From Rhodanobacter sp. B04 (GTDB lineage Bacteria > Pseudomonadota > Gammaproteobacteria > Xanthomonadales > Rhodanobacteraceae), in NCBI RefSeq assembly GCF_002001125.1, contig NZ_MUNV01000020.1, forward strand, positions 1 to 56,323: 56,323 nucleotides of DNA, read 5' to 3'. The translations under genes were made by a program, and so were the position numbers. A model generated the notes under the pieces. It was given only the letters and a program-made list of their open reading frames with translations. It did no database searches and had not been told where the DNA came from. Shown one piece after another: positions 50,683 through 56,323 of this stretch. Within the stretch, counting starts at the first letter, position 1; the number at the start of each line of letters is the position of its first letter.

Positions 50683-51390
50683 ATGCAGGCCCAGATGCAG
50701 TCCGATTTCATCGAGATTTTCGACAACGCGCTGGCGCCCGAGCAATGCGCTGCACTGATCGAACGCTTCAAGCTTAGTGGGCAATCAAGGCCGGGACAGG
50801 TCGGTAGCGGGGTGTATCCGGAACTCAAGGACAGTGCCGACATCACCATCACCGGCAAGCCGGAGTGGCGTGACGCTGAAACCGCGTTGAACCTGGCAAT
50901 GCTGGCGGGGCTTACCCGTTACCTGCGCCGCTACCCCTACACTCTCATTGCGCCGTTGATGCTCAAGGTTCCCGACGCCACGGGCCAGTCGCGCCAGTTG
51001 ACCGAGGATGATCTGGCCGCGATGGACGATGCCGCCCTGAGCTCGCTGGCCCGCACCGTGTTCACGCCAGGCAGCATCAATCTGCAGCGCTATCGCGCTG
51101 ACACGGGCGGCTACCCTTACTGGCATTGCGAACTGTTTCCCAAGGATGCCACTGCGCAGACCCTGCACCGCCACCTGCTATGGACGGTCTACCTCAATGA
51201 TGGCTTTGCCGAAGGCGAGACCGAGTTTTTCCATCAGCAGCGAAAGATCAAACCCCGCACAGGCAGCCTGTTGATCGCACCGGCTGCGTTCACCCACACC
51301 CATCGCGGCAACCGTCCGCAGGGCGGCGACAAGTTCATCGCTACTAGTTGGGTGTTGTTCCAGCGCGCGGAGGCGCTCTATGGCAGTTGA
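50683..51390 (+). CDS. 2OG-Fe(II) oxygenase (prolyl-4-hydroxylase-like)
   Basis: 235 residues with a double-stranded beta-helix oxygenase core: LQRYRADTGGYPYWHCE, then LLWTVYLNDGFAEGETEFFHQQ, IKPRTGSLLIAPAAFTHTHRG and GGDKFIATSWVLF. The order (first His, YLN, GET.F, late His) matches P4H-type enzymes. The usual His-x-Asp iron motif reads His-Cys-Glu here, if aligned correctly. Substrate unknown. It is the last gene with the host-like composition before the lower-GC segment. Confidence 0.82.
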   Translation: MQAQMQSDFIEIFDNALAPEQCAALIERFKLSGQSRPGQVGSGVYPELKDSADITITGKPEWRDAETALNLAMLAGLTRYLRRYPYTLIAPLMLKVPDATGQSRQLTEDDLAAMDDAALSSLARTVFTPGSINLQRYRADTGGYPYWHCELFPKDATAQTLHRHLLWTVYLNDGFAEGETEFFHQQRKIKPRTGSLLIAPAAFTHTHRGNRPQGGDKFIATSWVLFQRAEALYGS

Positions 51391-51699
51391 GCAAAGCTCA
51401 TGTGGTGGGCCCACCAACCCCCATGTATGGCCTTTGAGGCCATCAACAGAGCCAAACAAGGCAGCGTCAAAGTTTTTGGTATCCCGTTCCGTATCCCGCA
51501 AATCAATGCACTACTCCAGAATGGTTCGACTGGTGCGCTGACTTTTGGGTACCGGCGCCTTCGTGTCTCGAATTTCGGCTGCAATCGTTCATACTTTAGC
51601 TATGGGGAATATCCGCAGGAAGCTAAATGGCGCCGGGCCATAAGCTCTGCCGTACCAAAATGTCGATCGACGGAAGAGCGACGCACCTAAGGAGGGAGC
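51391..51699. other. intergenic junction before the lower-GC segment
   Basis: 309 bases with no convincing gene. A perfect palindrome TGGTGGGCCCACCA lies at 51403-51416, and a direct repeat GTATCCCG at 51479-51486 and 51491-51498. Base composition shifts from GC-rich to mixed across this stretch. The final AAGGAGGG is the kinase gene's ribosome site. It may be the edge of acquired DNA, but no integrase or tRNA is visible. Confidence 0.4.
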
Positions 51700-53130
51700 A
51701 TGCCTGACATATCGGATGCGGTTCGCGAGGATATCGAGGTTCGCCTCGGCCGATTCCTAAAGGCTAAGGATAAGTACTCGCATCCGACGTTCATCGGATC
51801 AGGAGGGTCCGCTGCGATCTACAAAGTGGACACCGACTCAGGCCCACGAGCCATCAAGGTGTATGACCCCAAGTTCTTAACAGGAGACCATGCAAAAGCC
51901 GAAGCACGGCGCCTTGATTTGCAGCGATCGCTCATTGGCCATGACTGTTCAACGCTCGTAAAGGTGTTCAGGGTCGAAGAAGCTGAAGGCACCGCATTCA
52001 TTGAGATGGAATTCGTACCGTGGCCGCAGCTAAAGAGAGTGCTTGCAGATGTTCCGGATGAAAAAGTCTCCGGCCTCGTGAAGCAGCTTGTAGAGGCGGT
52101 TGTCTTTCTTGAAAAGCTAGACATCGCTCATCGCGACGTAAAGCCAGAGAATATTCATGTCTCTGAAGACTTCTCCCAACTAAAACTCATCGACTTGGGT
52201 GTGTCGCGCACCATGTCACCGAGAGACGAAGAGGGGAACGATGCGACGGATCATGGGCAGAAGAGGCCATTCATTGCGACGGCTCAGTACAGCTCGCCCG
52301 AATACCTATTCCGGCTCGATGCGCCCTCGCCAAACCTCTGGAAGGCGCTCAACATTTATCAGGTAGGAGCAGTTCTTCATGATCTGATAAATAAAAAACC
52401 GCTGTTCGATGATGAGGTGAATCTAGATAACCGATGGCTCGTAGCCCGAGCCGTTCTTACAAAAATTCCGAACTTCCCTGATGCTGATCCAACTCGCCTA
52501 GTGGCGCAAAAAGCTTTAGCTATCCGTTGCCTTACTAAAGACGTGGACACGAGGTTGAGGATCGTCAGCTGGAGCGACTTCACTTTTGAGGCGTCGACTG
52601 ACGGTCTATCGACGCTCAAGAGTCGATTGGCGAAAGGGAAAGGACTTGCGGGCAGTCAGGGCGCAGCTGCGGTGGATGAAAGGCTCCGCTTCGAACGCGA
52701 GCAATTTGCAAAAAGGTTCTGTGAAGTGGTGCGAACAGAGCTCATCGCTGCTTGTGACCGAAAGGTACACGTGACCATGGTGGTAAATGCGTCAGGGGGG
52801 GCTTCGGGGTATGAATTCGAACTAGAGATAGGCCCAAGAGTGACCGTTTTGGCTAGCGTTCGGCTCGACTGGTTCGATGACATGAACTGCAACTCAGCCC
52901 GAGTCTCAATTGCCGCAGCTCTGAGCTGTGGGTCAAGCGCGGCCCCAAACCCAGAGCCACAAGTTGTCGCGGTGGCCACGATAAGTGAGTCGGAGGAGAC
53001 TATCGCCCTAGATGTCGCGCGTTGCTTAGCCGATATACTCGTTCGTGTACTCGATCTACTTGAGTCCACCGATGATGTAACGGTGTTGCACGGAACGGAT
53101 ATTGGCCAGCTTGTTCTCGACACGGACTAA
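51700..53130 (+). CDS. Hanks-type Ser/Thr protein kinase, first gene of putative defence operon
   Basis: 476 residues, cytoplasmic (no signal or membrane segment). Kinase domain about 28-300: Gly loop FIGSGGSAAIYK (31-42), ATP Lys53 in AIKVY, catalytic loop HRDVKPEN with Asp136 and Asn141, Asp155 in DLG (instead of DFG), and SPEYL (189-193) as the APE motif, so all catalytic residues are present. The last ~150 residues are a separate alpha/beta-looking domain I cannot name. Start is supported by AAGGAGGG. It ends 5 bp before the helicase gene. Codon use is clearly less GC-rich than genes to the left. Confidence 0.88.
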   Translation: MPDISDAVREDIEVRLGRFLKAKDKYSHPTFIGSGGSAAIYKVDTDSGPRAIKVYDPKFLTGDHAKAEARRLDLQRSLIGHDCSTLVKVFRVEEAEGTAFIEMEFVPWPQLKRVLADVPDEKVSGLVKQLVEAVVFLEKLDIAHRDVKPENIHVSEDFSQLKLIDLGVSRTMSPRDEEGNDATDHGQKRPFIATAQYSSPEYLFRLDAPSPNLWKALNIYQVGAVLHDLINKKPLFDDEVNLDNRWLVARAVLTKIPNFPDADPTRLVAQKALAIRCLTKDVDTRLRIVSWSDFTFEASTDGLSTLKSRLAKGKGLAGSQGAAAVDERLRFEREQFAKRFCEVVRTELIAACDRKVHVTMVVNASGGASGYEFELEIGPRVTVLASVRLDWFDDMNCNSARVSIAAALSCGSSAAPNPEPQVVAVATISESEETIALDVARCLADILVRVLDLLESTDDVTVLHGTDIGQLVLDTD

Positions 53131-53135
53131 GGTTA

Positions 53136-54293
53136 ATGGACACAAGTTGGTGGGTTTCAAAGGATGATCTTGACCCCGCGCAGCAGGCATTCATTAAATT
53201 GCCCGCACACGGCAAGTATCAGTTAGAGGGTCCAGCTGGATCAGGTAAAACAAATCTCTTACTCCTTCGCGCACAATTTGTTGCAGGCCAAGGCGAGAAG
53301 AACGTTTTGGTGGTTACCTATACCAACGCCCTCTGTGACTTTCTGAGAAGCGGCCTTGTCGGGACTGGCCTGATCGAGGGTGATCAGGTGCGAACTTTTC
53401 ATTCATGGGCGGTGGGCCATATAGGGCGCTATCTGAAAGTACCCTTGATCGAACAGGGTGCAGACTTTGATGAAGAGACCAGAGCACGGGCGGTCGAGTT
53501 GTTGAAGCAGGCCAATGAATGTCTACCAGCAAAGAAGATCTATAGCTCAATATTCGTGGATGAGGCTCAAGATCTAACGGTAGATGAGCTTCGTTGCCTC
53601 CTCTCTCTTTCAGACAACGTTTGCGTTTGTGGAGATCTGAAGCAAGGAATTTACCAGCGAGACGGTTTAGACATAGCCACCGACATGGGCTTGGAAAAGC
53701 ACACTTTAACCAAGCATTACAGAATCGGTCAGAGGATCGCCCAAGTGGCAGATCGGCTCTTAGCCGCAGAGAACCCCGGACAGTCACTGGAAGCGACATC
53801 CAACTACAATCCGAAGATCCAAGGGACGCCCAGTGCAGAAATTCATAGATGCGCTGACCGCGATGAGCAATTCGCCAAACTATGCGAATTACTTAGCGTC
53901 CAGCTCGTCGCATTCCCGGGCGAGAAGATCGGTATCTTCTGTGGCAAGCGAAGCACTGCAGCTGAATTGGCTGAGCGGTTTGAGGGCACAGAGTTTGAGC
54001 AAAACGTGTGCTATCACGTTGCGGATACGGACGGATTTGCAAGCGACGCCCTTATTCATATCATGACGATGCACTCGGCGAAGGGTGTCGAGTTTCGAGC
54101 TGTACACCTCTTCGGTGTCGAAGAACTGCGACGCGGCCCGTTGTCACGAAATACTCTGGCGTACACAGCAATTACACGCGCTAAAACAGCGCTCAACGCA
54201 TACTGTACCGGCAAGACCAATCCGGCGCTTGAGGAGGCCTTTGCACAGCCCAAGCACATGGAAATCGAAGACCTCTTTCCGAGCAAAAAATGA
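53136..54293 (+). CDS. compact UvrD/Rep-like superfamily 1 helicase/ATPase
   Basis: 385 residues. Motif I GPAGSGKT (32-39), Ia VVTYTN, motif II VDEAQDL (141-147), motif III GDLKQGIY, motif IV KHYRIGQRI, motif V TMHSAKGVEF, motif VI AYTAITRAKTAL: a complete set of SF1A motifs. It is far shorter than UvrD, Rep or RecB (over 600), because the 1B/2B insertions are largely missing. It may therefore act as an ATP-driven switch or translocase rather than a processive helicase. The start is 5 bp after the kinase gene; the stop overlaps the next start (ATGA at 54290). Confidence 0.87.
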   Translation: MDTSWWVSKDDLDPAQQAFIKLPAHGKYQLEGPAGSGKTNLLLLRAQFVAGQGEKNVLVVTYTNALCDFLRSGLVGTGLIEGDQVRTFHSWAVGHIGRYLKVPLIEQGADFDEETRARAVELLKQANECLPAKKIYSSIFVDEAQDLTVDELRCLLSLSDNVCVCGDLKQGIYQRDGLDIATDMGLEKHTLTKHYRIGQRIAQVADRLLAAENPGQSLEATSNYNPKIQGTPSAEIHRCADRDEQFAKLCELLSVQLVAFPGEKIGIFCGKRSTAAELAERFEGTEFEQNVCYHVADTDGFASDALIHIMTMHSAKGVEFRAVHLFGVEELRRGPLSRNTLAYTAITRAKTALNAYCTGKTNPALEEAFAQPKHMEIEDLFPSKK

Positions 54294-55705
54294 ACACCGA
54301 GAACTTAGTTTGGTATGCCGCTGAGAGAGAGGAACTTCCGGAGGTAGCCTTCGGAATCGGAGACTTCCGTGAGCGAAGCTCTCCGTTTTTCCCCGGGTCA
54401 TTCGCCGGAAGTAAGGGCGTCAGGGTGGCATTTACCCGCGAATCTGTCGGGTCATTGGATTATCAGCCCCCTTCTATGTTTGTGCTGGAGAAGAAATCAG
54501 CACCCGAGACTCTCTCGTGGCTACGTGTGTACGCACGAGGCGCATTTCCATTGAGCCAGTTTGCACGAGTTGTTACCGAGGCTGATTGGGCTTTGCTTTC
54601 GTCTGAGGAGACTGATGGTCAAGCGACCCGTAGCGATAAGTGGTCCAGCGTCATTCTCGGGGAAATCTTGGCTCAGGCCGATTTTGAGGGCGAACTTGAC
54701 GCACTTCCTGTATCAAGAGCGACCGCCTGCTTCTCATCGTCGGTCGCGCGTACCGTGCTTCTTCATGACTCATACGCTGTAACGAGATTGTGCACGGAGC
54801 GCCTGAGAGACGCTTCAAGAGACGAGAGATTCGGAAAGCGCGTCGTGTCTGTAGATATGCTTGTGCCGATATGGGCAGCGTTGTCAGCGAACATTGCTGA
54901 TGTGTCTGACATGTCTGAGTTGGTGGATCTTTTTCTGCATGCTGCAGATATGGCCAATGACACGCGGGCAGCTCAGTATGGGCAACGCGAATTGTTCAAA
55001 TACCACCGCCAAATATTCAGCGATTCAGTGGAAGAGCGTGTTGTTGCCTTTCAGCGGATATCCAGTGACATCGTTTCTGGGGGCGGCCGTACACCCACGG
55101 TATCTCCGTATTCTGCTGCGGTGTTGGCTCTGGCTGCCTTCCTTGTTGGGAGAGGGACGAGTCATGCATTCTTACTTCGGAAGTTCCCTGCTTTCGCGCC
55201 GTTGGCATTTGCGTGGTTTGGACTAGCCGCAGCCTTGCGTGGACCGCGAGGATGGGACCAGTCTTGGGCGAGAGTAACCAAAGCAATCGAGCGTCAAGTT
55301 CGATCCGCTTTTCACTGGAGTGATCCACCGTCGGCCGATATCTGCTGGGCAGAATATAAGTGGCTTGCAGATACTTTCTCAGGCAACCAAGCTCTTGCAG
55401 AGCTTAGCCGCATGACGCCTCGTTCCCTATCTATCGAGATAGTGCCCGGTGCGGTATGTCAGTTTCGAACATCAGAGCAGAAACTTCCTCAAGAGTATGT
55501 GGTCAGAGCAACCCAAGTCGCTCTACCCCGCGATCAAGAAATACGTGCGACCCTCGAATCGCTCATTGACCTGTCTAACAAGGCTAGGCAATTGCTTGGC
55601 CGAGCCGAAACAAAAGTAGGGGAGCAGCAAGGCCTTCCACTTGAGGCGTCGAATCCCGCTTCTGGGTCGAAAGCGAAACGGAATTATAAGAAGCCTATTA
55701 AGTAG
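54290..55705 (+). CDS. unknown protein, third gene of kinase-helicase operon
   Basis: 471 residues with no similarity I recognise. It starts MNTENLVWYAAEREELPEV. The middle (about 270-320) contains a hydrophobic Ala/Leu/Phe stretch (SAAVLALAAFLVG, LAFAWFGLAAALRG) that could be buried helices or weak membrane segments. The C-terminal ~40 residues are polar and end in a basic tail (SKAKRNYKKPIK) suited to nucleic-acid binding. Trp-rich short motifs (WDQSW, CWAEYKW) recur. The ATGA overlap with the helicase gene implies coupled translation and a functional partnership. It could be the effector or target-recognition part of the system. Confidence 0.75.
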   Translation: MNTENLVWYAAEREELPEVAFGIGDFRERSSPFFPGSFAGSKGVRVAFTRESVGSLDYQPPSMFVLEKKSAPETLSWLRVYARGAFPLSQFARVVTEADWALLSSEETDGQATRSDKWSSVILGEILAQADFEGELDALPVSRATACFSSSVARTVLLHDSYAVTRLCTERLRDASRDERFGKRVVSVDMLVPIWAALSANIADVSDMSELVDLFLHAADMANDTRAAQYGQRELFKYHRQIFSDSVEERVVAFQRISSDIVSGGGRTPTVSPYSAAVLALAAFLVGRGTSHAFLLRKFPAFAPLAFAWFGLAAALRGPRGWDQSWARVTKAIERQVRSAFHWSDPPSADICWAEYKWLADTFSGNQALAELSRMTPRSLSIEIVPGAVCQFRTSEQKLPQEYVVRATQVALPRDQEIRATLESLIDLSNKARQLLGRAETKVGEQQGLPLEASNPASGSKAKRNYKKPIK

Positions 55706-55858
55706 GCCAATTCCATGGCTACGCGCTCTCCATATAGTGCAAGAGAGGCCTAGGCAAGCCACGTGGGCCGAACGGTAAATGGCTGAAACTTGTTTAGCCG
55801 ATGCAGCACTGCAGAAGTGGGAAAGCGAGAAGGGACAGCACGGGGGCGAGAAGTGGGG

Positions 55859-56182
55859 TCATGGTAAATACAAGAGGTAGGCATACACTACAAACGTGGC
55901 GATCAGACCGAAAGATACGATGATGCAGATCGCCTGCAATATGCGCTTCTGCCAGCCAAGACGTTTTCGAAGTGCGTTGAAGCTTCCCTCAAAGAGGTCT
56001 TTTACCTTCTCGTGATCCTTTGCGATCGTCTGCTCACGTCGATCAATTTCTTCCCCGAGAACCTCCATCGTCTGCCGCTGGTTGGTGACCAATATCCACG
56101 TCAATATGGCGAAGATGAAGCTGCCGATTGCTACGCCGGTGTTTATCCAAAACTGGCTGCCAATTCCTTCCGCGTGCTTCAT
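55859..56182 (-). CDS. two-helix coiled-coil membrane protein, possibly 5'-disrupted
   Basis: 107 residues from the ATG at 56182 (MKHAEGIGSQFWINTG). Membrane helix 1 at about 15-33 (GVAIGSFIFAILTWILV), a charged heptad region about 38-70 (coiled coil, EEIDRREQTIAKDHEKVKDLF), and helix 2 at the C-terminus (AICIIVSFGLIATFVVYAYLL). The frame stays open to 56224, but those codons belong to the insertion-sequence end. The ATG at 56182 lacks a ribosome site, so the native promoter or N-terminus may have been lost. It converges on the kinase operon across a 153-bp gap; it may be unrelated or a membrane-acting component. Confidence 0.6.
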   Translation of the reverse strand: MKHAEGIGSQFWINTGVAIGSFIFAILTWILVTNQRQTMEVLGEEIDRREQTIAKDHEKVKDLFEGSFNALRKRLGWQKRILQAICIIVSFGLIATFVVYAYLLYLP

Positions 56183-56196
56183 TTGGGTGGCAACAA

Positions 56197-56323
56197 TGTT
56201 GAGTTCCATCCAAAACTGAGCCACTTCGCCGGGTGATTTTCGTCGAAATTTGAGCCACCTCCTACCACCCTCCGCTCACAGCACGAGCGGGAGCAACAGG
56301 AGTGATCGACGTGGCCCTATTGA
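56197..56323 (+). mobile_element. left end of an IS21-family element (partial)
   Basis: The segment starts with TGTTGAGTTCC, as IS21 ends begin with TG. It has two copies of TGAGCCAC (56217-56224, 56251-56258) as in the multiple terminal repeats of this family, and leads to a start codon reading like an IstA N-terminus. The element runs off the window, so the right end, target duplication and istB cannot be seen. Confidence 0.5.
56302..56323 (+). CDS. istA: IstA-like transposase, first codons only
   Basis: A GTG preceded by ACAGGA opens a frame reading V-I-D-V-A-L-L before the window ends. This agrees with the usual beginning of some IS21 IstA transposases, as I remember them, but seven residues are too few for certainty. 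Confidence 0.4.

Follow-up and report, generated by a model that had tools for sequence, protein, structure and literature searches.

Known kinase and helicase systems and the K-H-T locus

Mokosh type I is described as uniting a Ser/Thr kinase domain, an RNA helicase of the COG1112 type and a PLD nuclease (PMC11672841), the kinase Stk2 as stopping phage production through the phosphorylation of proteins (PMC12926258), and CapK as a GHKL kinase that is activated by DNA damage, an example of how single-stranded DNA can trigger a kinase beside immune operons (PMC13373217). ARG-centred host systems, in turn, are predicted to counter viral ADP-ribosylation (PMC9503650). Here, we compare with these systems an operon of three genes near the right-hand end of a contig of Rhodanobacter sp. 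B04 (NZ_MUNV01000020.1; the entire contig, 56,323 nucleotides, is the window of this study). The genes encode K, a Hanks-type Ser/Thr protein kinase with a variable C-terminal region, H, a short UvrD-like helicase of superfamily 1 (SF1), and T, a third protein of no known sequence family. A preliminary description of the window had put the trio forward as a candidate undescribed defence system. This proposal holds in so far as the trio is conserved, accessory and, in PADLOC and the literature searched, not matched by a named system, while the enrichment of defence genes beside it is only suggestive; on balance, we consider it probable that K-H-T is an undescribed anti-phage defence system that is mobile and sporadically distributed. 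New in this trio is T, with a middle part that is predicted to have an ADP-ribosylhydrolase (ARH) fold lacking the metal ligands and, in both clades of the protein, a tail with a putative sliding-clamp-binding motif.

No described system with this trio was found in PADLOC (2023 release), and text searches on defence in the open-access literature listed no title or abstract that describes it. Individually, K matches only generic kinase models and H only generic helicase models (Pfam, NCBIfam, PADLOC and PHROGs). The trio shares with Mokosh type I the pairing of a kinase domain with a helicase, but H is UvrD-like (Pfam), where Mokosh has a COG1112 helicase; no PLD-type Pfam match was found for K, H or T up to an E-value of 1, MkoA models match K via the kinase domain only (3.1e-10, PADLOC), and neither MkoA nor MkoB is among the best 25 of the 53 PADLOC families matched by H. 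The best PADLOC models for K are those of PD-T4-6 (8.1e-25), which fit its kinase domain. Whereas PD-T4-6 and Stk2 are single-gene systems, K is part of a conserved three-gene operon and has its own C-terminal region. Gabija is similar in that GajB, a UvrD-like helicase, is a weak match to H (1.7e-18, PADLOC), and differs in that H has only 385 amino acids and is accompanied by a kinase; GajA is absent from the best 25 PADLOC families of K and H and from the matches of T, which has none. The kinase of CapK belongs to a family other than that of K.

A conserved and co-inherited operon

K (51700..53130, 476 amino acids), H (53136..54293, 385 amino acids) and T (54290..55705, 471 amino acids) are all encoded on the forward strand, with a gap of 5 bp between K and H and a 4-bp overlap (ATGA) between H and T. 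The coordinates of the open reading frames (ORFs) thus confirm the tight operon of three same-strand genes that had been noted before. A Shine-Dalgarno-like AAGGAGG, read from the sequence, is found upstream of K (51689..51695, forward strand).

With a T profile, 16 loci were found in 84,980 species genomes (scanned with two peptide patterns) and three in IMG/VR, numbers that are lower bounds. Complete K-H-T trios, alike in order and strand, are present at 16 of these 19 first loci, and the remaining three (L013, L017 and L018) are broken by contig ends. Genome searches added three more complete trios (L059, L157 and L158) and a scan by K one more that is very diverged (L147; its T is 16% identical to the window T). 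The total is 21 complete trios including the window, none with a stop codon: the three genes are neighbours elsewhere too. Hosts are Gamma-, Beta- and Alphaproteobacteria and one Verrucomicrobium; L002 and L157 are not independent because they are near-identical (94-97%), and L006, on a short contig of a metagenome-assembled genome (MAG) labelled Bacillota, may be mis-binned.

Searches that start from the other two genes give the same picture. When IMG/VR was scanned by K, all four loci with at least 229 bits had H, and T was present in 3/3 where the contig goes on; nine loci with at most 88 bits had neither H nor T. In the scan by H, one locus among the 80 listed reached 638 bits and the next 74 bits. 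The distance matrices of the three proteins are correlated (K-H 0.95, H-T 0.90, K-T 0.93), far above the best of 1000 permutations (0.58, 0.54 and 0.53, respectively), and the close pair L002/L157 has a dN/dS of 0.12-0.14, indicating purifying selection. K, H and T have co-diverged and are one co-inherited operon, more than a chance neighbourhood.

These data also bear on the possibility that the locus is a known kinase/helicase defence system (PD-T4-6, Mokosh or Gabija) with T as a bystander gene, to which the matches of K to PD-T4-6 and of H to GajB would point. Loci found through K carry T wherever the contig continues, T has diverged in step with K and H, and there is neither a GajA nor a PLD nuclease among the operon proteins; we regard this explanation, already disfavoured, as highly improbable.

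Rarity, mobile context and neighbouring genes

T was found in 2/233 genomes of the window's family (the second being the fragmented MAG of L013/L017), in 1/369 genomes of the class sample (the window's own genome), in 3/348 genomes of the Pseudomonas citri genus sample and in 4/345 genomes of the Xanthomonas codiaei family. The trio is accessory, patchy and rare rather than core. Integrase genes accompany some of the trios: that of L004 lies about 180 bp and that of L014 about 1.9 kb upstream of K, and in L010 the distance to T is about 11 kb; at the other loci no integrase was close by in the stretches fetched. In the IMG/VR records of L019 and L020, an integrase is found at one end, separated from the trio by some 60-70 kb.

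Such integrases, in particular those of L004 and L014, would fit an element-borne module for competition or exclusion, directed against other phages, plasmids or integrative and conjugative elements (ICEs) and serving the carrier prophage or ICE rather than the host. The end integrases of L019 and L020 can be counted in its favour, although they are far from the trio. However, T has no match among 50,697 phage records or 72,556 plasmid records, and the lack of integrases in the fetched stretches of the other loci also speaks against such a module; its function would overlap with defence and is hard to tell apart from it by sequence. We consider it distinctly unlikely.

The preliminary description had proposed to look for known defence genes near the trio. 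The neighbour set comprised 108 ORFs of at least 150 amino acids within 4.5 kb of the trio at 18 loci, and these matched 90 PADLOC families at 1e-15. Forty of the 108, picked by size and position, were scanned individually: the neighbours include QatA and PycC at L011, GajA at L010, Drt1a at L015, RT_UG17 at L020, a partial Dsr1 match at L003 and a NERD-UvrD protein (PADLOC candidate model) at L005. A neighbour match above 200 bits is present at 6/18 loci. At the three later loci, one of ten scanned neighbours matched (RTasNERD-Hel, 125 bits, L059). Pooled matches that are not placed per locus are E2, PD-Lambda-5_A, GajB, QatB, QatC and PycTIR.

As control, 111 of 115 ORFs (the four largest left out) were searched that lie, in the same genomes, on 20 arbitrarily chosen stretches of 12 kb. 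These also gave 28 PADLOC families, among them ZorA, ZorB, ZorE, RT_UG29, mad2, mad3, DolB and PDC-M37B; the control matches also include the housekeeping-looking DinG, RtcR and GlgB. As the control matches cannot be placed per stretch, no p-value can be given and the enrichment of defence genes beside the trio is suggestive only.

Two caspase-like proteins are encoded near the trio, one at L010:12108-14000, beside GajA, and one at L015:5057-6442, upstream of K (PADLOC caspase model, 2.8e-12 and 1.3e-14, respectively). Neighbour set A2 further contains one match to DNA gyrase B and one to the beta clamp (DNA_pol3_beta_2), and some trio may be located near an origin region.

The kinase and the helicase

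The catalytic domain of K spans approximately residues 30-288 (Pfam Pkinase, 3.3e-24, residues 30-288). In the alignment of 18 rows, the residues of HRDxKPEN and D165 are invariant and K53 is nearly so (the row of L012 is without the N-terminus). The claim that all motifs of a Hanks kinase are present therefore stands for the catalytic residues, which are kept across the alignment, and needs one correction: the motif reads DLG, not DFG. Conservation is concentrated in the catalytic domain: K of L004 and L158 are 88% identical over residues 1-290 and 58% identical from residue 300 to the end.

H matches UvrD-helicase (Pfam, 5.9e-13) and UvrD_C_2. The SF1 motifs previously noted in this 385-residue protein are kept across an alignment of 19 rows: the key residues of DEAQD, GDxxQ and motifs V and VI do not vary, and Walker A hardly does; the row of L017, a late-starting frame, is without Walker A. 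The solved structures heading the match list of H are chains of PcrA, UvrD and Rep, and GajB is also in this list. H is about half as long as the PcrA, UvrD and Rep chains, a length that suggests that it is without the extra subdomains of UvrD. At the C-terminal end of H (54260-54290), a D-L-F-like stretch is conserved across the aligned loci, including the diverged L147, and may represent a separate docking motif. Considered as a second clamp motif (see below), this end was rejected: it has no Gln and the pattern fits 0/19 H C-termini.

The third protein has a predicted ARH fold

T (54290..55705, forward strand) has nothing above cut-off in Pfam and no match in NCBIfam, PADLOC or PHROGs. A search of 5.8 billion proteins returned a family of 88 members including the window T, and there is a second, deeply diverged clade of 35 proteins. 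Homology between the two clades extends over almost their whole length (hhalign 99.5%, E-value 7.9e-23, 422 columns). The counts of homologues are lower bounds, with 7998 and 7996 candidates scored in the protein searches. When IMG/VR was scanned with the second clade, no locus was found beyond one already known.

Residues 114-341 of T (54629..55312, forward strand) are predicted to adopt the all-helical fold of the ARH/DraG family (PF03747), as judged from predicted models and fold comparison. When the full-length model was searched with Foldseek against PDB and BFVD, there was no match at an E-value of 0.001 or below; the ARH signal first emerged in the second-look fold comparison (VIA), and a test with the isolated domain followed. 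For this domain, the top 37 matches are ARH proteins, leaving aside 8xks_Q, 8xqw_G and 6sga_FP (rows 15, 26 and 37), and in the VIA second look the top 32 are ARH proteins, leaving aside rows 20 and 21; the matches left aside are chains of larger complexes, with a relation to ARH that may or may not exist.

ARH metal ligands are Thr-Asp-Asp and Asp-x-Asp-Thr. Of the positions 114-341 of T, just two, E125 and E248, carry an acidic residue in at least 80% of 117 full-length rows, and no metal-ligand Asp is conserved: the domain is predicted to be an ARH fold without a metal site. ARH/DraG hydrolases are described as having a binuclear metal site (PMC9503650). T differs from these enzymes in the absence of the conserved two-metal Asp and of any sequence-family match, as well as in its extra N- and C-terminal parts. 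It has no PF03747 match in Pfam, and hhalign of T with seven PF03747 sequences (of eight extracted ARH proteins, the truncated L051 being left out) gave no significant result and one local alignment, close to where the ARH domain ends. A T profile searched against PDB sequences matched only Nup93, at chance level (E-value 0.25 or worse), and this candidate was rejected.

The nearest idea in the literature is that of the ARG-centred systems, where an ARG/ARH-fold protein is part of a predicted conflict operon without an ADP-ribosyltransferase (PMC9503650). In our trio, no ADP-ribosyltransferase is found among K, H and T; the loci were not searched for one. The described systems differ in that a catalytic ARG is combined with phosphatases, Nudix or WYL regulators, or chaperones, and sections 18 and 31 of that work contain no trio with a kinase and a small SF1 helicase (PMC9503650). 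Loci L047 and L048, in two genomes of the same genus, encode a protein of 515 amino acids that has a PF03747 match with metal motifs that seem to be lost in part; its second half is phosphatase-like by eye and reminiscent of the ARG-phosphatase systems (PMC9503650).

The C-terminal tail of T

A long helix leads into the C-terminal tail of T, in which a short motif lies between a variable linker and a basic end. Residues 442-471 have pLDDT values below 50 and the tail is likely disordered. This low-confidence tail contains QQGLPL (residues 446-451; 55625..55642, forward strand), which resembles a sliding-clamp-binding motif, and ends in a stretch that is rich in Lys and Arg by composition (SKAKRNYKKPIK; 55667..55702, forward strand). 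K and R make up 41% of the last 15 residues of T and 10% elsewhere (mean of 88 proteins).

The clamp-binding motif has been given as QL[S/D]LF (PMC3716654) and, in a revised form, as Q-phi-x-[LM]-[FL] or Q-phi-x-[LM]-x-[FL], with phi aliphatic (PMC13254535). Tails with Q-x-x-[LMF]-x-[LF] or Q-x-[SD]-[LM]-[FL] are present in 51 of 87 clade 1 proteins (one of the 88 has too short a tail), compared with 1.3 on average and at most 6 in 2000 shuffles; this pattern was picked after viewing a clade 1 alignment of 38 rows, and the clade 1 score is post hoc. For clade 2 the pattern was fixed beforehand: it is present in 14/35 tails, as QRDLF in all 14, with a mean of 2.3 and a maximum of 8 in 1000 shuffles. 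Neither set of shuffles takes account of the relatedness of the sequences. The motif Gln of clade 1 and clade 2 are put together by hhalign. The background of the pattern is low: 5/111 and 2/108 unrelated ORFs, 0/18 K and 0/19 H. The Q, L/M and F/L positions of the revised motif fit 47/88 tails of clade 1 and 18/35 of clade 2. Two observations speak against a clamp-binding function: the second motif residue is mostly polar, so that the strict (aliphatic) motif fits only 5/88 and 0/35 tails, and the clade of T that holds Pseudomonas proteins is without the motif. Alternatively, H or K could be the partner to which the motif docks T.

A motif of this kind mediates clamp binding by RecB, likewise an SF1 helicase subunit (PMC13254535). 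Together with the UvrD-like H (Pfam) and the clamp-binding-like tail and basic end of T, this would suit a mobile module for DNA repair or replication stress, with H and T acting via the clamp at damaged or stalled forks, K signalling the damage and defence not being the main role. However, repair genes are usually kept more widely, whereas the trio is rare and patchy, lies near integrases at some loci and is close to several defence systems. Of a repair module we are doubtful, and hold it to be unlikely.

Flanking DNA

The GC content is 0.51-0.53 per kb at 52001-56000, compared with 0.59-0.71 at 1-51000, in agreement with the lower GC content reported before. The gene to the left of K (50683-51390) resembles, by eye, a 2OG-Fe(II) oxygenase; it has a DNA match of 70-73% identity in 5/43 other genomes of the genus, and three more genomes of the genus have only matches of 33-35 bp to it. 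As the DNA match ends about 18 bp before the stop of this gene, the trio is outside the shared stretch.

To the right of T, an ORF of 121 amino acids (55859-56224, reverse strand) matches phrog_5023, a family of unknown function, at positions 295-400 of 412 only (1.8e-18). It runs into a repeat at the contig end and is apparently the remnant of a phage-type gene, cut by this repeat. The insertion sequence-like end of the preliminary description is borne out to this extent: the final 127 bp of the contig (56197-56323) recur exactly in two other contigs of the same assembly (C8:1-127 and C11:633021-633147) and, over 132 bp with 98% identity, in a third (C27). The repeat may explain the contig break at this position. 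Predicted promoters and terminators in the region were not above those of shuffled sequences, and no tRNA genes or Rfam families were found in the window.

Proposed mechanism and significance

If the trio is a defence system, H, as a minimal SF1 motor or sensor built around the SF1 ATPase core, might engage abnormal or phage DNA, and T might tether the complex at the DNA, perhaps via the replication clamp, using the Q-x-x-L-x-[LF] motif of its tail and the basic end. T would be a non-hydrolytic sensor or scaffold, or, alternatively, could sense ADP-ribose-like ligands. H or T would then switch on K, which would phosphorylate host or phage proteins and stop phage production, as described for Stk2 (PMC12926258). 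While the anatomy of the trio is directly supported, the order of these events is what we infer from it. The preliminary description had the third protein act; with T looking like an atypical ARH-fold protein whose tail resembles a docking element, a role as effector is not favoured over one as tether or sensor.

A more specific version would be an immunity docked at the replisome: the metal-less, clamp-hooked ARH-fold T and the minimal SF1 helicase would sense ADP-ribose marks of the phage or clamp-loaded phage forks, and the Hanks kinase would shut the infected cell down. We offer this version as speculation with a small chance of being correct.

As an anti-phage system, the trio, kept as a unit in Gamma- through Alphaproteobacteria and including a third protein that PADLOC lacks, would represent an immune system of new composition. 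Should T be a clamp-docked, ARH-fold non-enzyme, the replication fork would become a testable trigger for a bacterial kinase-based defence, and the ARH fold would gain a non-hydrolytic role in immunity.

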